A DNA stretch of 30,724 nucleotides from a virus: positions 1 through 30,724 of the IMG/VR virus record IMGVR_UViG_3300032322_000655; one strand, given 5' to 3'. The notes under the pieces are model-generated. The model saw only the letters and a list, made by a program, of their open reading frames with translations. It was not told the DNA's origin and ran no database searches. A program made the translations under genes and the position numbers. Positions 11,990-30,006 of the stretch are shown here, piece by piece. The first letter of the stretch is position 1; every line of letters begins with the position of its first letter.

Positions 11990-13285
11990 TCACGCCCAGG
12001 GGTTGACCAGGCCGGTGCCGCCGATCACGGCCACGGACTTTGCGTAACGAGCGACCATCGCGTTGTACACGTATGCGCGGAAGAGCACCGTGCCCGTGTT
12101 GGCGAGGGTCTCGCGGAACGCTTCCAGGCGCGGCGCCGACTCGGCGAACACCACGTCGTCGGCCTTGAGGACGATGATGCGGTCCTCGTCGGTGCCGGTG
12201 CCGAGGTTGGTCGGGATGTTGGCGTCCACGAAAACGGGGATGCCCTGGATGTCGCCGACGTAGCCCTCGGACGACACACCCTCCTGGGTGCCGACGGCGT
12301 TGAAGCGGCCGTTGGCGGCAGGGGTGATGAGCGGCCGCTGGCTGGAATCCACCGACGCCAAGAAGAAGCCCCATCGGCGAGGGTGCATCAGGATGCGAGT
12401 CGGTGCCGCAAACCGGTTGGTGTGGACCTGCTGGATCGCGTTAGCAATCTGGCTGTACAGCTCGCCCACCGTCGGCGATGCGTCGGTGTAGGTCACCGAG
12501 ATCGCGTTCTGGGTGCTCAGGAGGCCGTACTTGCCGGTGGCGTTGGAGGTGAGGCCCCACACGTCCTGAGCGCGGGCGGTGTCGGCGGCGAGATCCTGCA
12601 AGATCACGCCGTCGAGGTTGACCGGGCTCTGCTCAATGAGCTGGACCGAGAGCTTCTGGATGCCACCGATGGTGTGGACCGCAGCCGTGCGCGTCGCGGT
12701 GACGGCGTCCGACTCGTTGAAGCCGGTGTTCTGCGAGGACTGGGTCGCGGCAACGGTTCCGGTCGTGATGGCCGGGTAGTTGAGCGAGTCGGTCCCAGCC
12801 GGGAGAGGCTGCTTGTCGAGCTGGTCAATAGAAACACGGCCCGCACGAGCGAACGTGATCCACGCACTCGTCAGATATGCGGGCGGGACAAAGTCTCCAC
12901 CCGACGTATCGGTCGTGTTGAGTGCGCGGGCCTCCGCGTTGTTGCGGTGGAGGCGATCCATCGCCTCGCGGTCGCCGCGGGTGTTGGCCGCGAACAGGTC
13001 ACGGAACCATGACCGCTCGCCGTCGGCGCGGTAGGTGGACGGCTCGGACACGACCTGGACCGATGCGGTCTGGGCGGACGTGAACGAGCGGGACTGGGCA
13101 GCGTCGAGGGCGTCCATCTCGGAGATGCGCTCGGTGAGAGCGTCGGCGGCCTCGCGGGCCTCCTTGACGCTGGCGAGCTCCTCGTCGGTGATGTCGCGGG
13201 CCTCTGCCTCGGCCGTCTCAACGACGGCCCGAGCCTCGGCCAGCTTCGCCTCACGCTGCGCGATGAAGGTATCGCGGACAGACAT
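11990..13285 (-). CDS. Major capsid protein, HK97 fold
   Basis: 431 residues from the ATG at 13285, which has AAGGGAG upstream; the longer frame to 13621 is not protein-like. Residues 1-60 or so form a charged coiled coil (the delta or scaffolding region normally cut off by the prohead protease). A linker follows, then the HK97 core beginning near 'DTSGGDFVPPAYLTSAWITFARAGR', with 'SLNYPAI', 'VSVQLIEQS'-type spine helix segments and 'ILMHPRRWGFFLA' in the P/A domain. The C terminus is 'YVYNAMVARYAKSVAVIGGTGL'. Its built-in N-terminal coiled coil fits the absence of a separate scaffold gene. It follows the protease gene by 112 nt, one of the few spacers in this operon. Confidence 0.92.
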   Translation of the reverse strand: MSVRDTFIAQREAKLAEARAVVETAEAEARDITDEELASVKEAREAADALTERISEMDALDAAQSRSFTSAQTASVQVVSEPSTYRADGERSWFRDLFAANTRGDREAMDRLHRNNAEARALNTTDTSGGDFVPPAYLTSAWITFARAGRVSIDQLDKQPLPAGTDSLNYPAITTGTVAATQSSQNTGFNESDAVTATRTAAVHTIGGIQKLSVQLIEQSPVNLDGVILQDLAADTARAQDVWGLTSNATGKYGLLSTQNAISVTYTDASPTVGELYSQIANAIQQVHTNRFAAPTRILMHPRRWGFFLASVDSSQRPLITPAANGRFNAVGTQEGVSSEGYVGDIQGIPVFVDANIPTNLGTGTDEDRIIVLKADDVVFAESAPRLEAFRETLANTGTVLFRAYVYNAMVARYAKSVAVIGGTGLVNPWA

Positions 13286-13397: not shown

Positions 13398-14546
13398 TCA
13401 GGCCAGGTACAGGCGCGCGACCTCAAGGTTGCGCGCGACCCGGGACTCTGTGGCCTCGGGAGTCTGTGAACGCATCGGAACCGTGGCGATGCCGAGCGAG
13501 GAAGCGAGCTGCCAGCGCCAGCCCTGGTGGGCGTCAATGCGCTCGTCAAGGAAGTTGGCAAGCCCGGACTGGTCGGCCTCGTCGGCTGCTTCACGGGAAC
13601 GCCGCAGGCAGTCAATGACAAGGTCGTTGGCGGTCATCAGGTCGGCCGCGAGAGTGCGGGCGTCCATGGACACCGGGGAGTCGTCAATGGTGCGGGCGCC
13701 TAGGATCTGGGGGAGCGTGGACACTGGTACGCCGCCGACCTTGCGGATGTTCTCCGCCAAGGGATCAATGGACTCGTAGGTGTCCTCGTAGATGTGCCCG
13801 AACAGGTCGTGATACTGGGCAAAGTCAGCGCCGACGACGTTCCAGTGCGCGGCGTGCGCCCGGTAGTACAGGCTGAACACGTCGGCGAGGGTGGTGTTGA
13901 GGTAGTCGGGCAGTGACCGGGCGGCGACCATGTCGTCAACCTCGTCGGTGTCCGGCATGTCCTCGGCGGTGTCATCCATCTCGGGGGCCATGTCGTCGAG
14001 GACGCGGAGGATCGTTTCGCGGGCCTCAGGGGACACGGCGCCGGAGCGCACCTCGGCGAGGGCCAGGTCGAGGTCGCGCAGGCCGACAGAGGTCTGCTCG
14101 TACCACGGATAGGTGACCACCGAGACGTCCATGAGGCGGACTTCCAGCAATTCGCGGTTGCGGGTCTCGGGGTCAATCTGGTCACGCACAGGGATGAAAG
14201 AGAAACTGCACTGGTCGATATCCGACCGTGCCATCGCGGAGACCAGCTCCTGCACCGTGGGATTGCTCATGTCAAGGTCGGGGGCGTCCATGAACAGGCC
14301 GCGCTCGTCGACCGTGAGGGTGAGGGTGCCGGACTTGGTGCGGGCGATGGGGACGCCGTCGTGGTTGACGAGCAGTCGTACATCGTCCTGCTCGGCGAGG
14401 GTCTTGGTGAACGCGGAGGAGCGGATCACCTCACCGTGGGCGGGCGTATCGAACAGGGCCGCGTAGCCTCGCAGCCCGACCTTGCCGTCGGCCTCACGGA
14501 CTTCCCACCCCGCTTCAACGCTGCGGCGCTCCATCTTGTCCATCAT
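13398..14546 (-). CDS. Prohead protease fused to a Dps-like ferritin domain
   Basis: 382 residues, about twice the usual length. Residues ~5-165 are an S78-type prohead protease: LRGYAALFDTPAHGEVI near the start, H62 in NHDG and S114 in CSFSF as likely catalytic residues, and DVSVVTYPWYEQT at the end of the domain. An acidic linker (~184-206) follows. Residues ~212-352 are a Dps-like four-helix domain. H234 (HWN), H246, D261 and E265 match the Dps ferroxidase residues His51, His63, Asp78 and Glu82 of E. coli, with the same spacing. The conserved AERxxxLGG-type segment (AENIRKVGG) is present, as is a terminal helix. A ~30-residue tail closes the protein. The start overlaps the portal stop (ATGATGA). 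It is encoded between portal and capsid, as expected for the protease; the fusion is the oddity. Confidence 0.88.
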   Translation of the reverse strand: MMDKMERRSVEAGWEVREADGKVGLRGYAALFDTPAHGEVIRSSAFTKTLAEQDDVRLLVNHDGVPIARTKSGTLTLTVDERGLFMDAPDLDMSNPTVQELVSAMARSDIDQCSFSFIPVRDQIDPETRNRELLEVRLMDVSVVTYPWYEQTSVGLRDLDLALAEVRSGAVSPEARETILRVLDDMAPEMDDTAEDMPDTDEVDDMVAARSLPDYLNTTLADVFSLYYRAHAAHWNVVGADFAQYHDLFGHIYEDTYESIDPLAENIRKVGGVPVSTLPQILGARTIDDSPVSMDARTLAADLMTANDLVIDCLRRSREAADEADQSGLANFLDERIDAHQGWRWQLASSLGIATVPMRSQTPEATESRVARNLEVARLYLA

Positions 14547-15898
14547 TCTTGACCTGTTCCCTTGGTCGGACCCCCATTGGCGTCTGCCGGAACTACGGTG
14601 ACCGGATGCACCTCCGCGTATCCCAAGTCCGGCAGACCGAGAAGTTTCAAGGCATCGTGCGGGTCGTACCCTGCACGGACGAGCACGCCGACCGCATTGA
14701 TGCGCGCGGTCGTGTCGGCGACGTTGGCCGTGTCCAGCGGCGGCAAGTTCTCTAGTGCGCGCATCTCGTCCGTGGTCAGGAGTGGCGTGCCTGTGGCCTG
14801 TTGGATCTGGGCCGCCGTAAGGTAGGACTGGTAGCGGGTCTGAAGGTCTGCGCGCAGGATGGCGCCCGTCTTGAACCGGGCAATCTGTCCCTCGGGGAGG
14901 AGCCGCGTGAGGGACTCCTCAAGGCGGTGAATCCACGGGCCAAGGCTGAACGCGAGGAAGTCCGCCACGCGCGCTTCACGGTTCTGATACGTCAGCTCGT
15001 TGGACGACCCCGTCGACACTTCCAGCATGGACGGGCTGATCCCGAACACGCGGGCGACCTGGGCTGTGCTCCACGACTGAGCCTCAATGAATTGAGATTC
15101 TTGCGGCGCCACTTGGATGGCCTCGTACTTCAGTCCGGCGCCCAAGATCGCGGGCTCGCGGCGACCCTTCACCGCGTTCATAAACCGGGACTTGATCGTG
15201 GAGGCTTGCTCCTCGGTGACCGCCTGCTCGGTGGACAAGATGGCGGCGGGCACACCGCCCTCACCGAACCACTGCGCCCCGAACTTCTCGGCCGCCAGAC
15301 CCTGCCCGATGGTCTGCTTGGCGTACTCGATAGGGGACATGCCGACCCAGTGACCGGGCAGCATGAGACCGGGAACGTGCCAGATGTCGCCGCCCTGACC
15401 CCACGCCTCGTGGCGTTCACGGGCCCCGTTGACGTTGACGTAGAACACCTTGCAGCGGCTGGTCTGGTCCCACTCGGGGTGGACCTTGTCCGGTGCCAGG
15501 ATCTCAATGCGGGTGGCGTATCCGCGCTGATCCCAGTCCACGACCTGCCCGTATGCGTTTCCGCGCAGGAGCAGAGACGTGAGGACCGACTCCATCCACG
15601 ACGACCTAGGCACGAGTGCCGACGGGTCCGACAGGAGCGCAGGCGCCGGGGAAACGGCCTCCGAGATACCACCGTGATACCTGACACCCTCGACCGGCAT
15701 CTGCCCGATGGCGCCCGTGATGAGTCGCACGCACGACCACACGGCGGCGTGCCGCATAGACGTCTCGGCGGACACGTTCACACCTGAGAACGTCATCGTG
15801 CCGGGCTGCTGAGAGTTCAGCGGGAACGGGGGATACCCCGACCACGGAACATCGTTGCGTACCTCAGGAGCCCCCACGAGGCGACGTAGCAGGCTCAT
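14543..15898 (-). CDS. Portal protein
   Basis: 451 residues, typical length for HK97-type portals. Recognisable features are 'MRHAAVWSCVRLITGAIGQMPVE' near the N terminus, LLLRGNAYGQVV, GDIWHVPGL, the 'EYAKQTIGQGLAAEKFGAQWF' helix, and FGISPSMLEVS followed by 'ELTYQNREARVADFLAFSLGPWI'. The C-terminal crown region has 'TTDEMRALENLPPLD'. The portal forms the dodecameric DNA channel and docks the terminase. The gene overlaps both the small membrane protein gene upstream and the protease downstream by ATGA-type junctions. Confidence 0.93.
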   Translation of the reverse strand: MSLLRRLVGAPEVRNDVPWSGYPPFPLNSQQPGTMTFSGVNVSAETSMRHAAVWSCVRLITGAIGQMPVEGVRYHGGISEAVSPAPALLSDPSALVPRSSWMESVLTSLLLRGNAYGQVVDWDQRGYATRIEILAPDKVHPEWDQTSRCKVFYVNVNGARERHEAWGQGGDIWHVPGLMLPGHWVGMSPIEYAKQTIGQGLAAEKFGAQWFGEGGVPAAILSTEQAVTEEQASTIKSRFMNAVKGRREPAILGAGLKYEAIQVAPQESQFIEAQSWSTAQVARVFGISPSMLEVSTGSSNELTYQNREARVADFLAFSLGPWIHRLEESLTRLLPEGQIARFKTGAILRADLQTRYQSYLTAAQIQQATGTPLLTTDEMRALENLPPLDTANVADTTARINAVGVLVRAGYDPHDALKLLGLPDLGYAEVHPVTVVPADANGGPTKGTGQE

Positions 15899-16046: not shown

Positions 16047-17453
16047 TCACCACACCGACATGGCAACGTCAACCGGCTTGGTCGACGTCGCCTCCGAATA
16101 CGCACGCAACGCAACAGTCGCCGAGATCAAGGTCGTGATCTCCGAAACCGAATCCTTACGCGCCCAAGCCCACGCATCCCCGAGCGGACGCTTCCTGGCC
16201 GCCGATACAGCGGCCGTCAACTCAGGCTGCTCACGGTGCCGCACCCGGCCCTCAACGACGGCGTCATAGAACGCGCCGCAGCCCTGGGCAATGTCACGCG
16301 CCGACATGAGCAGAAGCGGGACGCCGAGCTGCTCCAGCTCAGGGATCAGTGACCCGCACGGCCCGCCAGGGTCCACCCCAATGGCGAGAGCCCCGTGGTT
16401 CTGCACAAGTTCCGCAAGCCGAGGCGCGACCCAAGCGGTGCCGCGGCGGTAGTCCACGACCTCGACGCCGTGCAGCCCATCGGACCTGGCGCCCGCCGCA
16501 GAGATAGAAGCCCAAGCCCGGTCAAAGGACACGTCCGGCGCGAACACCACCGGGTCCTCAATCTCCGACCTCGGGTCGGAGCACGCCTGCCACGCATCCA
16601 TGGGAATGACCCAGTCAGCGCCCGACGCCTCGTCGTCCCACACCCCCAGGCGTTCACGCCGGAACTCACCCAACGGCAACGCCGCCAACTCACGCTCAAT
16701 GAAGTCAGGCTCAATGCGGATGCCCAGAGCAGGGTTGGCCTGAGCCCACGCCTCCCGGTCATCCACCGCGACATCCGGTTGCGCCGACCACTCAAAGTAC
16801 GCCAGCGCCGGATCGCCACCCGACCGGCCACGGTCCCGCACCACCATGAGCTGGGTCGAGTCCCGCTTACCCGCGCTGGACGTGTACCAGACCTGAGGAT
16901 TGGGGCGGGCCGACAGGGTCGGCAACAGGGCACCCATCGCCGACGCCGACAAGGCGAAACTCTCGTCAAGGATCGTGCAGTCCGCGCTGAAACCTCGACC
17001 GCTACCGGCGCCCGTCCTAGCGACAAAGCGGAGACGCGCGCCGCCCTTCAGCTCAATGCCTTCCTCCCCATGGGAGGTCCGCACCCGAGCGACCCGCTTC
17101 CGCAACTCGTCGGAGTTATCCACAAGGAAGTGGATACGGCGGAACGCCTCCTGGGCAGTCTTAAACTCGTGGGCGCTGTGAAGGATCAGTTGCTCACCAA
17201 ACAGGAACAGGCCCGCCAACTCGCGCGCCTCAAGGATGCCGTTCTTGCCGTTCTGGCGAGGCGAGATCACGGCCACCTCAAACGCCGACCACTTACCGTC
17301 GGCGCGCTCCCCGCAACCACCCTTCAGAACCAACTGTTGCCACGGGTCAAGGTGCAACCCGACAGACGCGGCCAGTTCAATGGCCTCGACCCCCGACGAT
17401 GAAACCGCCTCGGGGACGCTGCTAACTCGCGGCCTTTGCGCGCCTCGCGGCAC
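16047..17453 (-). CDS. Terminase large subunit
   Basis: The likely start is the GTG at 17453, giving 468 residues and a 32-nt overlap with the upstream gene. A GTG at 17528 would add 25 Arg-rich residues from the upstream frame. The motor domain has an atypical Walker A (SPRQNGKN, about residues 64-71) and Walker B CTILDE (D163, E164), with the coupling motif region YTSSAGKRDS afterwards. The C-terminal RNase H-like nuclease has candidate metal ligands in FAPDVSFDRAW, IGVDPGGP and the final GDAWAWARKDS. The protein pumps DNA into the prohead through the portal and cuts the concatemer. The start is the uncertain part; the function is not. Confidence 0.9.
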   Translation of the reverse strand: MPRGAQRPRVSSVPEAVSSSGVEAIELAASVGLHLDPWQQLVLKGGCGERADGKWSAFEVAVISPRQNGKNGILEARELAGLFLFGEQLILHSAHEFKTAQEAFRRIHFLVDNSDELRKRVARVRTSHGEEGIELKGGARLRFVARTGAGSGRGFSADCTILDESFALSASAMGALLPTLSARPNPQVWYTSSAGKRDSTQLMVVRDRGRSGGDPALAYFEWSAQPDVAVDDREAWAQANPALGIRIEPDFIERELAALPLGEFRRERLGVWDDEASGADWVIPMDAWQACSDPRSEIEDPVVFAPDVSFDRAWASISAAGARSDGLHGVEVVDYRRGTAWVAPRLAELVQNHGALAIGVDPGGPCGSLIPELEQLGVPLLLMSARDIAQGCGAFYDAVVEGRVRHREQPELTAAVSAARKRPLGDAWAWARKDSVSEITTLISATVALRAYSEATSTKPVDVAMSVW

Positions 17454-17673
17454 GCTTGCGGTTGAGCTCGTCAACGCGGCTCGTTTCCTTCGGGTCGGGC
17501 AGCGCCTCCAGTTCCGCCATGACCTCACGCAACTGGCGAGTCAAAGAGGGGACGTCCCGATCAGCGGTTTCTAGTTGACGCGCCAAGAGATTCCGTAGAG
17601 CCTCCAGCGTTCCGCGCCTATCACCGTTGGCCGCGTGATCCGAAAGTGTCTTCACGGGCTTCCTACGCGCCAT
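17422..17673 (-). CDS. Putative terminase small subunit
   Basis: An 83-residue, highly charged helical protein from ATG 17673. It has 'RRGTLEALRNLLARQLETADRDVPSLTRQLREVMAELEALPD' and a Lys/Arg-rich tail (RKRAARRAKAA). This pattern, helix pair plus basic C terminus, and its position directly before and overlapping the large terminase gene match the short small-subunit proteins of several actinophages. It would recognise the packaging site and load the large subunit. No clear helix-turn-helix is visible, so the assignment rests on context and pattern. Confidence 0.62.
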   Translation of the reverse strand: MARRKPVKTLSDHAANGDRRGTLEALRNLLARQLETADRDVPSLTRQLREVMAELEALPDPKETSRVDELNRKRAARRAKAAS

Positions 17674-26118: not shown

Positions 26119-26349
26119 CTATTCCTCGTCGTCGTACCAGGGCTCGGGCTCGGGCGCTGGTGCGATCTCGGTGTGTGCGGTGAAGCCGAGCGGGTGCCGC
26201 TCGGGGGTGACGTCTACGTCGGGCTCGTCCTTGGGTAGGGCGAGGGCGATGGAGGCGGCGTGGCGCATAAGGCTGCGGACTTGGGCGTAGTCCAGCTCTA
26301 GGCCGGATGTCGTCACCTCCACGCCGCCGATGGCGATGGTGACTTTCAC
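26119..26349 (-). CDS. Small hypothetical protein, end of the lysis-side operon
   Basis: 76 residues. The first ~40 are a strand-rich start (KVTIAIGGVEVTTSGLELDYAQVRSLMRHAASIALAL), and the rest is acidic, Pro- and Glu-rich (APEPEPWYDDEE). It overlaps the preceding DUF6378-like gene by 4 nt and ends just before the convergent terminator, so it is the last gene of its transcript. I do not recognise a family or function. Confidence 0.62.
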   Translation of the reverse strand: MKVTIAIGGVEVTTSGLELDYAQVRSLMRHAASIALALPKDEPDVDVTPERHPLGFTAHTEIAPAPEPEPWYDDEE

Positions 26350-26636
26350 GCCCAGACCTGGGTCGTCTCGTAGTCGATCTGTGAGGCGAGCGCGGAATAC
26401 CCGCAGGCGTCTACCCAGTCGTCGGGGTTCTGGCGTCCGGCTGTGGCCCTAGCGAGTTTGAGGGCGACCATCATGGCGGCGACGGTGCGGGGTGGGACGG
26501 GCTCGGGTAGGTCGAGTATGGCGCCCCACATTTGGCCGATGCGGCGGGCTTCTGTGGGGTAGTGGCCGTGGGATTGGGCTCGGTCTCCGGCGACGAGGTC
26601 GGCGGCGGTGTAGAGGGTGCGCTGCGCGGCGTCCAT
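26346..26636 (-). CDS. DUF6378-like small protein
   Basis: 96 residues from the ATG at 26636, with GGGGAGA upstream; the long frame to 26942 runs through the exonuclease gene and is rejected. The pattern DRAQSHGHYPTEARRIGQMW ... PPRTVAAMMVALKLARATAG ... DDWVDACGYSALA matches a small phage protein family that I remember as DUF6378 (D-R-x-x-x-x-G, LK-x-AR, DD..D-GY). The conserved acidic and His residues and the helical build suggest a nucleotide-pyrophosphohydrolase (MazG-like) relative, but that is inference. It follows the exonuclease gene by 14 nt. Confidence 0.7.
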   Translation of the reverse strand: MDAAQRTLYTAADLVAGDRAQSHGHYPTEARRIGQMWGAILDLPEPVPPRTVAAMMVALKLARATAGRQNPDDWVDACGYSALASQIDYETTQVWA

Positions 26637-26650
26637 GTGTTCTCCCCTGA

Positions 26651-27415
26651 TTATGCGATGCGTGTCTGGCCGTTCTTGAGGACTTTGTTCCAGGCGCCGC
26701 AGTCCTCGCACACGAGTTTGGGCCACGCGCTGGTGCGGGTGTAGACGGTTCCTGCGGGTGTGAGGTCGGCGCTGTCGCAGGCGTAGCAGTTGCTCATCTC
26801 GCCGGACCATAGGCCGATGTGTGGGAGTTTGATCCAGGCGCGCAGGCGCATGAACAGTGCCTCGGTGATGCGGACGTCGGTGGCGTTGTAGTCGCGGAAG
26901 AGGTCCCACGCCTCGGGGTCGTTGGCGAGGACCCGGTTCCATAGGGACTGTCCGCCGGTTTCCACTTTGGTGTCAAGGCCGAGGCGGTCGGTGACGTAGC
27001 CCAGTTTGTTGCTGGCGAACTTGAAGTTCTGCTTGTTGACGCGGTACAGGTCCACGTTCTGGTAGGGCGATGGTGGGCCGTAGTCGGCGGACACCCATTC
27101 CCGGTTGAGGTGGGGCATGTCGAAGCTGACGTGGTTGTATCCGACGACGATGTCGGCCTCGTTGACCATGGTCCATATCTCGGCGAGCATCTGGTCGCGG
27201 CCGTGGTGGTATTCGGAGTAGAAGGCGACGTCGGGGGAGTCAAGCCATTTGGCTGCGACGCACAGGACGCGGCTGGGTTGGATGACTTGGGTGACGCCGA
27301 TGTTCTGGTCGTACAGACCCCAGGCGTACACGATGTTGGGGCTGGTTTCGATGTCGAGGGTGAGGACTTTGGGGTCGGCGGGTTCTAGGGCGAGTAGGTC
27401 GTCGACAAGGGTCAT
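26651..27415 (-). CDS. DEDDy 3'-5' exonuclease with C-terminal zinc ribbon
   Basis: 254 residues. Exo I motif is LTLDIETSP (D21, E23), Exo II is VGYNHVSFDMPHL (D99), and Exo III is YNATDVRI (Y176, D180), as in the proofreading-type DnaQ/Pol fold. The C-terminal ~45 residues form a zinc ribbon (C210-x2-C213 and C236-x2-C239). No polymerase domain follows, so it is a stand-alone nuclease. The likely job is trimming or degrading single-stranded DNA or RNA primers, perhaps host DNA. It overlaps the upstream HTH-like gene by 4 nt. Confidence 0.85.
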   Translation of the reverse strand: MTLVDDLLALEPADPKVLTLDIETSPNIVYAWGLYDQNIGVTQVIQPSRVLCVAAKWLDSPDVAFYSEYHHGRDQMLAEIWTMVNEADIVVGYNHVSFDMPHLNREWVSADYGPPSPYQNVDLYRVNKQNFKFASNKLGYVTDRLGLDTKVETGGQSLWNRVLANDPEAWDLFRDYNATDVRITEALFMRLRAWIKLPHIGLWSGEMSNCYACDSADLTPAGTVYTRTSAWPKLVCEDCGAWNKVLKNGQTRIA

Positions 27416-28640: not shown

Positions 28641-28952
28641 CTAGTTGCTGACGGCCTGGATAACGAAAGCGATCACGGCCGCTTCAATGGGCACGATGAG
28701 TGAGATGAGGATGCCGACCCAGGTCATGGACTTGCGTTGCCGCTCGGCGAGTTGGGCGTCGCGCTTCTTCTCAATGGCTTCAATGTCGTCGCGGGTGGCG
28801 AGGCCGTGGAGGGATGTCTCTACCTCGCGGAGGCGGCGCTCGTGGTCCTCTAGGTCATCTGACTGGCGGCGGTGAAGTGTGAGCAGTGTGTCGAGCTTGC
28901 CCTCTAAGCGGGCCAGCATGACGCGGAGCTGCTGCTCGTCCTCAGTCGGCAT
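28641..28952 (-). CDS. Coiled-coil protein with C-terminal membrane anchor (lysis cassette)
   Basis: 103 residues. An N-terminal coiled coil (LRVMLARLEGKLDTLLTLHRRQSDDLEDHERRLREVETSL) and a second charged helix (EAIEKKRDAQLAERQRK) lead to one C-terminal membrane segment (WVGILISLIVPIEAAVIAFVIQAV). The build matches second holin or accessory membrane proteins found directly upstream of holins in actinophages. It overlaps the end of the glycosyltransferase gene by 11 nt and precedes the holin by 8 nt. A regulator or partner of the holin is likely. Confidence 0.75.
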   Translation of the reverse strand: MPTEDEQQLRVMLARLEGKLDTLLTLHRRQSDDLEDHERRLREVETSLHGLATRDDIEAIEKKRDAQLAERQRKSMTWVGILISLIVPIEAAVIAFVIQAVSN

Positions 28953-30006
28953 TGGTGTCCTCGCGCTGGGTGTAGTGGGTGAGGTTGTCCGCCAACCGGG
29001 GGTTGGTGGGGTCTAGTGCGGCGGCTTTGGTGCCGTAGTGGGTGGCTAGTTCTGGGTTGCCGAGCCAATGGGCGGCGAGGGCGGCGTAGTCGAGTGGTGC
29101 GGGGCCCCAGGCGTCGGGCTCGCACAGGTATTCCAGGGGTTGCTCGGTGATGGTGAGGGCACGCTCGGCGGCTGCGAGGCATAGGCGCCACTGGCGGGTG
29201 TCGTGGAAGTGGCGGGCGAGGTCGACCCAGGGCTCGCGGCGGTGTGGTGCCTCGGCGGTGGCTTTGAGGAGCCACTGCTCGGTGTTGTCGGGCTGGAGTT
29301 GCGCGAGGTAGCGCATGGCCTTTGACCGCTCGGCGTCCCAGGTGGCGGTGGGCAGGGACAGGTAGCGGTGAAACTCGGTGACGGCGTCGTCGCTGCGACC
29401 GGCGAAGTGCAGCTCGCGGGCGTAGTAGTAGGCGTTCCGGTCGTCGGCCGGGTCCTCGGCTACCGACTGCGCGAGCAGGGGCAGGTATTGGGAGCGGGAC
29501 TTGGTGGCGTCGGGGAAGTGGTGTATCTGGAGTGATACCCAGCCTTGGCGCTCTTCTATGAGCGGTGTGATGACCTCATGGACTGGATGACGCCATACGT
29601 ATCCGTGACGATTATGGATCTTGTCGCCGCCATACACAAGTCCCGGTGACCCGTCGGGGTTCCATGACCATGTGTAGCGGTAGCGGGGCCTAGTCCAGCC
29701 TTCTCGGTGCGCGGTCTCTAGGGCGTCGCGCCAGCCGGGTACGAGTACCTCGTCTAGGTCTAGTGCGATGCAGTAGTCCACATCGTCGGGGACGAGGGCG
29801 AGGGCGGTGTTTCTGGCGTTATCGAACCGCCACGGCTTGATGAGTCTTTGATGTGTGGTGACGCCCATGTCCTGGGCCAGCTCGGGTGTGCCGTCGGTGG
29901 AGCCGGTGTCCATGAGGACGATGTGGTCGGCGTCGATGGCGGAGGAGGCCCACCGCTCTACGTGTTGGGCCTCGTCTTTGGCTATGGAGTAGACGGCGAC
30001 TTTCAT
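28942..30006 (-). CDS. Family 2 glycosyltransferase with TPR-like C terminus
   Basis: 354 residues. The N-terminal GT-A domain starts VAVYSIAKDEAQHVERW, with LMDTGSTDGTPELA and the metal-binding D-L-D motif at D83/D85 (IALDLDEVLVPGW). WRHPVHEVI and IHHFPDATKSRSQYL follow. From about residue 170 on there are TPR-like helix pairs (YYYARELHFAGRSDDAVTEFHRYL, WLGNPELATHYGTKAAALDPTN). The same layout occurs in phage and bacterial protein glycosyltransferases. It is the first gene of the lysis-side transcript. The substrate is unknown: a virion protein such as the Thr-rich collagen fibre, or host surface glycans, are the main options. Confidence 0.82.
   Translation of the reverse strand: MKVAVYSIAKDEAQHVERWASSAIDADHIVLMDTGSTDGTPELAQDMGVTTHQRLIKPWRFDNARNTALALVPDDVDYCIALDLDEVLVPGWRDALETAHREGWTRPRYRYTWSWNPDGSPGLVYGGDKIHNRHGYVWRHPVHEVITPLIEERQGWVSLQIHHFPDATKSRSQYLPLLAQSVAEDPADDRNAYYYARELHFAGRSDDAVTEFHRYLSLPTATWDAERSKAMRYLAQLQPDNTEQWLLKATAEAPHRREPWVDLARHFHDTRQWRLCLAAAERALTITEQPLEYLCEPDAWGPAPLDYAALAAHWLGNPELATHYGTKAAALDPTNPRLADNLTHYTQREDTNAD

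Follow-up and report, generated by a model that had tools for sequence, protein, structure and literature searches.

Closest Described Systems

Dps mini-ferritins assemble into 12-mers, cages of about 9 nm. Members of the group (PF00210), such as 1n1q, Listeria innocua 1qgh and the E. coli protein, share a five-helix fold that includes a BC helix, and a set of HW...H...D...E ligands. In HK97-type phages, the capsid protein carries the scaffold as a fused part and the protease works in the procapsid (PMC10275583). Encapsulins, which are thought to be descended from such phages, house ferritin-like proteins; in Family 1 encapsulins with ferritin-like cargo, the shell has the HK97 fold and the cargo is found near a short, conserved C-terminal peptide (PMC8346489).

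The locus described here lies in the window, by which we mean the whole stretch of DNA analysed, a complete IMG/VR record of 30,724 bases. It encodes a Dps domain with the fold, BC helix and ligands of the mini-ferritins, but this domain is fused to a protease, is flanked by acidic sequence instead of a basic tail, belongs to a family that varies at the Asp67 position, and falls short of the cut-offs set for NCBIfam's named Dps equivalogs, NF041388, NF006975 and NF052461 (57.7, 45.2 and 43.5 bits, with cut-offs of 170, 114 and 300, respectively). The protease shares its domain, its family score and the terminase-portal-protease-capsid gene order with HK97-type S78 proteases (PF04586, TIGR01543), from which it differs by a 140-residue passenger placed before a conserved C-terminal peptide. 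The likeness to encapsulins is one of analogy only: the shell is that of a phage capsid accompanied by portal, terminase and tail genes, the putative cargo is of the Dps type, and the carrier would be a maturation protease. The capsid protein matched PF05065 with 56.6 bits and Linocin_M18 with 15 bits, below the cut-off of 24.3, and is not placed in an encapsulin family by these profiles.

Gene Order and Domains of the Fused Protein

On the minus strand of the window, the genes follow the order terminase large subunit, portal, protease-Dps, major capsid, tail terminator, major tail protein, tape measure and fibres, and an integrase and RecT are encoded at higher window coordinates. The virus is probably a temperate siphovirus. 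Its major capsid protein is closest to those of mycobacteriophages (39%), which suggests an actinobacterial host. The features of the head region are as follows.

16047..17528, minus strand: terminase large subunit (PHROGs)
14543..15898, minus strand: portal protein; its stop overlaps the start of the protease-Dps gene
13398..14546, minus strand: S78 prohead protease–acidic linker–Dps–C-terminal peptide in one gene (382 aa, ATG start, TGA stop)
14079..14501, minus strand: Peptidase_S78 domain, residues 16-156 (Pfam PF04586, E 1.5e-32)
13914..14060, minus strand: acidic linker, about residues 163-211; the Dps cassette is present or absent here in close relatives
13494..13913, minus strand: Dps/ferritin-like domain at residues 212-351, with five helices, one of them the BC helix (profile and predicted structure)
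13401..13469, minus strand: conserved C-terminal peptide, residues 360-382, ...EATESRVARNLEVARLYLA; retained whether or not a relative has Dps
11990..13285, minus strand: major capsid protein (PF05065), its ATG start placed at 13285 from the DNA letters

The protease-Dps gene sits between the portal and major capsid genes, and its reading frame (13398-14546) runs uninterrupted for 382 aa with no internal stops. The S78 match scored 113.5 bits in Pfam against a curated cut-off of 21, the TIGR01543 prohead protease model was passed with 83.7 bits (cut-off 59), and PHROGs assigned the protease part to phrog_80, head maturation protease. H62 (in NHDG) and S114 (in CSFSF) are invariant across four relatives and form a candidate catalytic pair, these being the residues that we take to be catalytic in S78 proteases. 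Downstream in the same frame, Pfam placed Ferritin PF00210 at residues 214-351 (E 5.4e-19, exceeding the curated cut-off) and PHROGs placed phrog_3636 ('DNA binding protein') at residues 209-351 (E 1.9e-25), while the top match of the fused protein among PDB sequences was Dps 1n1q (3.7e-15). The first-pass annotation, made from the letters of the sequence, had read the gene as a prohead protease fused to a Dps-like domain and had proposed a profile search of the Dps part. These results confirm that an S78 prohead protease and a complete Dps are joined in a single polypeptide.

Predicted Fold and Ferroxidase Ligands

In an AlphaFold model of the full-length protein, the S78 and Dps domains were predicted with pLDDT of about 89-98, and the linker and tail were uncertain. 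The Dps part consists of helices at residues 212-236, 242-269, 278-284, 296-323 and 327-350 (pLDDT about 93-98 for the greater part of its length); the helix at 278-284, which corresponds to 78-84 in the domain-only model, is the short BC helix that Dps proteins typically have and lies in the long B-C connection. When the Dps part was modelled alone from a clean domain alignment, the same fold was obtained (pLDDT 92.4, pTM 0.85). The leading Foldseek matches were Dps crystal structures, with 1n1q aligning at a TM of 0.93 over the target and an rmsd of 1.3 A, and the Dps helix bundle originally placed at residues 212-352 is therefore upheld for the predicted monomer.

The codons of the ferroxidase ligands, and of the one position that departs from E. 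coli Dps, are listed below.

13845..13847, minus strand: H234, equivalent of E. coli Dps H51 (89/89 relatives; the residue lies within some search patterns)
13809..13811, minus strand: H246, equivalent of H63 (89/89)
13797..13799, minus strand: G250, equivalent of Asp67, not conserved (fixed-spacing count)
13764..13766, minus strand: D261, equivalent of D78 (89/89)
13752..13754, minus strand: E265, equivalent of E82 (89/89)

H234, H246, D261 and E265 align without gaps, and with exact spacing, to H51, H63, D78 and E82 of E. coli Dps, and the same assignment follows from alignments to PDB Dps sequences. The H-x11-H-x14-D-x3-E spacing was present in 89/89 related Dps domains, a count that is partly ascertained for H234, which falls in one search pattern, and not for H246, D261 and E265, which lie outside all patterns of the alignment-based scans. 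Among non-Dps ORFs of these loci, the spacing occurred once in 1.85 million residues, and a chance origin is therefore negligible. A chance four-helix resemblance is likewise ruled out by this rarity together with the PDB, Pfam and Foldseek matches. Only 8/167 positions are invariant in the 89 sequences, namely W235, F242, G328, W345 and the four ligands. Each Dps ferroxidase site is built by two subunits; both half-sites are retained, as such a site requires. Glycine at the Asp67 position, which had been noticed at the outset, is an ordinary substitution in this family, since the position varies widely (n=89: E 26, G 22, A 11, Q 9, S 9, N 5, D 4, K 2, L 1). The ligand assignment made from the sequence thus stands, and supports a Dps domain that looks ferroxidase-competent.

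Charge offers a clue to what the domain may do. Linker residues 163-213 carry a net charge of -11 and the Dps domain one of -12, and the 25 residues that precede Dps have a median charge of -3 among 87 fused domains. The basic DNA-binding tail that is present in some Dps only was absent from the linker, domain and flanks, all of which are acidic. DNA coating is disfavoured on this ground, and the early suggestion that the domain shields DNA by binding it has lost support. Fe(II) oxidation is the activity to which the conserved residues point instead.

The Dps Segment as a Cassette

A second contig is identical to the window over 13,609/13,609 bases (the fused gene is identical in L002 and L010), and probably represents the same virus. 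Homologous fusions, with proteins 72-76% identical to that of the window, were found in two other contigs (L011 and L338). Since these are joined by 86 distinct ORFs that combine Dps and S78, a sequencing or frame error is excluded. Nothing was found in favour of an assembly or frameshift artefact that fused two separate genes, and its likelihood is negligible.

Comparison of close relatives revealed that Dps is an in-frame cassette, present or absent between the acidic linker and the conserved C-terminal peptide. The S78 domains of L345 (on the same contig as L011), which has Dps, and L342, which lacks it, are 94% identical; those of L338 (with Dps) and L335 (without) are 89% identical. The flanks are kept in both states, reading ...ALAEVRSGAVSPEAR... 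on the left and ...PEATEPRAARxxxIARxLYL... on the right, and a C-terminal end of the [E/I/V/D]AR..L type was present in 35/39 complete relatives. A helix at residues 369-381 of this peptide was predicted by AlphaFold with low confidence. In L348 and L357 another segment, with no family identified, precedes the C-terminal peptide.

In L349 and L352, single or double zinc ribbons follow S78 in the place of Dps, and are followed by an EARALL-type C-terminal peptide.

Zinc ribbons and other segments at the Dps place mark the protease tail as a site of passenger exchange, and from the sequences the region between the linker and the C-terminal peptide has the look of a cargo slot. The C-terminal peptide might direct the protein to the shell, as targeting peptides do in encapsulins (PMC8346489; an analogy).

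Rough dN/dS values were obtained by a simple counting method for the window, L338 and L011. Those of Dps (0.23-0.32) lie near the values of S78 (0.15-0.20) and below those of the linker (0.40-0.55), which indicates purifying selection on the Dps part. The view that conserved ligands argue against a relic is strengthened by these values and by the invariance of the ligands in the whole set of relatives.

The cassette arrangement bears on whether Dps is a structural passenger, an oligomerisation or core-building module that would bring proteases together or occupy the procapsid without any iron chemistry. Dps proteins do form 12-mers, the domain sits like a spacer between the linker and the C-terminal peptide, and other inserts occupy the same place. 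Such a role would, however, leave the metal ligands, invariant in 89/89 domains, unexplained; close relatives function without any insert, and the major capsid protein, whose N-terminus is coiled-coil-like and resembles the HK97 delta domain, appears to carry a scaffold-like segment of its own. We consider this explanation decidedly unlikely, and the purely structural scaffold that was among the roles first suggested is less well supported than before.

Spread and Repeated Origin of the Fusion

IMG/VR was scanned with alignments of the Dps domain, and the scans yielded 334 relatives and at least 551, respectively. The loci retained from them contained 86 distinct ORFs in which Dps and S78 share a reading frame. 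Dps comes first in 68 of these and S78 in 18, one of which has two Dps domains in tandem; these counts are samples from at most the best 80 loci per collection scan and not prevalences. Clustering of the 86 ORFs at 90, 70 and 50% identity left 48, 25 and 17 groups, respectively, and the domains of fusion representatives were confirmed by Pfam and PHROGs. Dps was also fused to an XkdF-type S78_2 protease (L223), to a phrog_9427 protease with DUF6321 (L078), and, in L298, L314 and L204, to proteins without a recognised head domain. Three UniProt entries from uncultured Caudovirales named 'Prohead protease' (A0A6J7WIS1, A0A6J7WPK9 and A0A6J7XDU5), found through BFVD, contain the same Dps fold and are 38-48% identical.

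Several of the loci hold larger or composite proteins. A 1,740-residue polyprotein (L195:1741-6960) combines portal and head maturation protease matches with Dps, and an ORF of at least 1,690 residues that runs off its contig (L088:3139-8208) has an N-terminal S78 and two tandem Dps domains with intact ligands. Dps is joined to a 'minor head protein' family match and a zeta-toxin-type kinase domain at L210:5638-8031. A recurring phrog_2859 domain ('MAETYRPPKGVQDEAKRALAWIADG...') adjoins Dps and protease domains in L012, L026, L195, L006 and others, and Hva1_TUDOR (PF11160) is found inside protease polyproteins, with or without Dps, in L012, L026, L187 and L379. Two ORFs of about 640-690 aa (L298:887-2800 and L314:4936-6990) have a central Dps and no other recognised families, and are possibly divergent head proteins.

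No INPHARED record, out of 50,697 phages, covered the fusion. Among ca. 85,000 prokaryote species genomes, phage-type Dps was present only in three short MAG contigs (L090-L092), two of them with Dps fused to S78. The early remark that this is not a standard architecture therefore holds for isolated phages, but the fusion recurs in uncultured ones; the viruses concerned are known almost only from environmental DNA. The literature searched, which covered few subscription journals, contained no description of a Dps-head protease fusion. The components are each known, and the architecture, its recurrence and its cassette behaviour appear to have gone unremarked.

In a tree of Dps domains, metagenomic phage Dps grouped apart from the sampled bacterial Dps, and free and fused forms were interspersed. 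At least seven changes between the fused and free states are needed on this tree, which has 128 rows, few columns and many open forks, and on which the INPHARED Dps occupy long, uncertain branches. One ancient fusion, inherited vertically, was rejected both for all fusions (p-AU 0.006) and for the S78-first group (3.9e-6). We conclude from the tree that the Dps-protease fusion arose more than once. Repeated independent fusion, together with purifying selection and invariant ligands, also speaks against a selfish or neutral hitch-hiker, i.e., a Dps cassette inserted by recombination and tolerated by the protease; the presence or absence of Dps among near relatives is what such an element would produce, but we regard it as very improbable.

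Stand-Alone Relatives

Not every member of the family was found beside head genes. Of 58 stand-alone Dps genes, 10 were located at a protease and 20 had a recognised head gene in the locus, while no head gene was detected for 38/58 within the flanks fetched. The proposition that all family members belong to head modules is therefore not supported, and some may be plain auxiliary genes. In two loci (L006 and L183), a free Dps gene overlaps the stop of a protease gene of a different family, with the gene for the major head protein downstream of it. The stand-alone Dps of Synechococcus phage S-SRM01 and of Lactobacillus and Aeromonas phages is likewise a phage-encoded Dps fold, but it is free, encoded beside non-head genes and distant (about 25-35% identity), whereas that of the window is fused.

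These genes are relevant to an auxiliary role in defence against reactive oxygen species (ROS), according to which Dps would be made with the protease, cut free, and act in the host cytoplasm, any presence inside the head being incidental. Freshwater phages carry ferritin among ROS-defence genes that have been interpreted as help to the host (PMC6802176), many relatives of the window's Dps are short free genes with no head gene detected nearby, and the free Dps of isolated phages adjoins non-head genes. A free gene would suffice for this purpose, yet fusions to protease-type head proteins arose repeatedly, and even a free Dps gene can overlap a head protease gene. An auxiliary role of this kind appears unlikely for the fused protein.

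Proposed Role in the Procapsid

Since the head protease acts within the procapsid, a domain that is part of the protease chain is expected to be found there as well. Judging from the sequences, we consider it probable that Dps is a ferroxidase cargo that the protease brings into the procapsid. The mini-ferritin inside the capsid that was first envisaged has gained from the repeated fusions to protease-type head proteins and from the order of protease and Dps genes, and its placement there is still best viewed as a likely arrangement. We infer that the domain is encapsidated, forms 12-mers, survives maturation, oxidises iron and benefits the phage.

The protease would enter the procapsid by its usual contacts, possibly with the involvement of the C-terminal peptide. 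The Dps domains, enclosed along with it, would pair or build Dps cages, which may then be released by proteolysis or remain tethered. Cages of the usual Dps size would be too large to exit through capsid pores unless degraded; head proteases can digest themselves and their partners, and Dps might be destroyed or freed early. The Dps site would bind Fe(II) and oxidise it with peroxide or oxygen. Fenton reagents would in this way be removed beside the packaged genome, or the enzyme could guard assembly or enter the host at infection.

The recurrence of the fusion suggests that an iron or oxidation-protection enzyme is loaded into phage heads. More tentatively, and with rather less than even confidence, we propose that head proteases of uncultured tailed phages serve as cargo vehicles: the site ahead of the conserved C-terminal peptide would accept in-frame passengers (Dps, zinc ribbons and other domains), which would be brought into the procapsid in this way. 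With Dps as the passenger, the virion would be an HK97 shell filled with ferritin and would match the encapsulin-ferritin compartment on the viral side, with several origins.

If Dps is present in the virion, the particle carries an enzyme against iron and peroxide damage, and this would bear on what reaches the host and on the survival of phage DNA where water is sunlit or rich in iron. Encapsulins would then have a viral parallel, and phage ferritins read as host-protecting (PMC6802176) would in part have to be re-read as components of the particle. Passengers set behind a head protease and ahead of its C-terminal peptide would also amount to a natural design for cargo loading.

Other Genes of the Window

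A glycosyltransferase (phrog_13126, E 5e-106) is encoded at 28942-30006 on the minus strand, at the end of the record. The minus-strand gene at 26346-26942 matched the PHROGs family 'phosphofructokinase' (phrog_474, 1.5e-20), a name that is doubtful for a protein of 198 residues. A collagen-like tail fibre of 712 residues, with many low-complexity matches, is encoded at 468-2606 on the minus strand.
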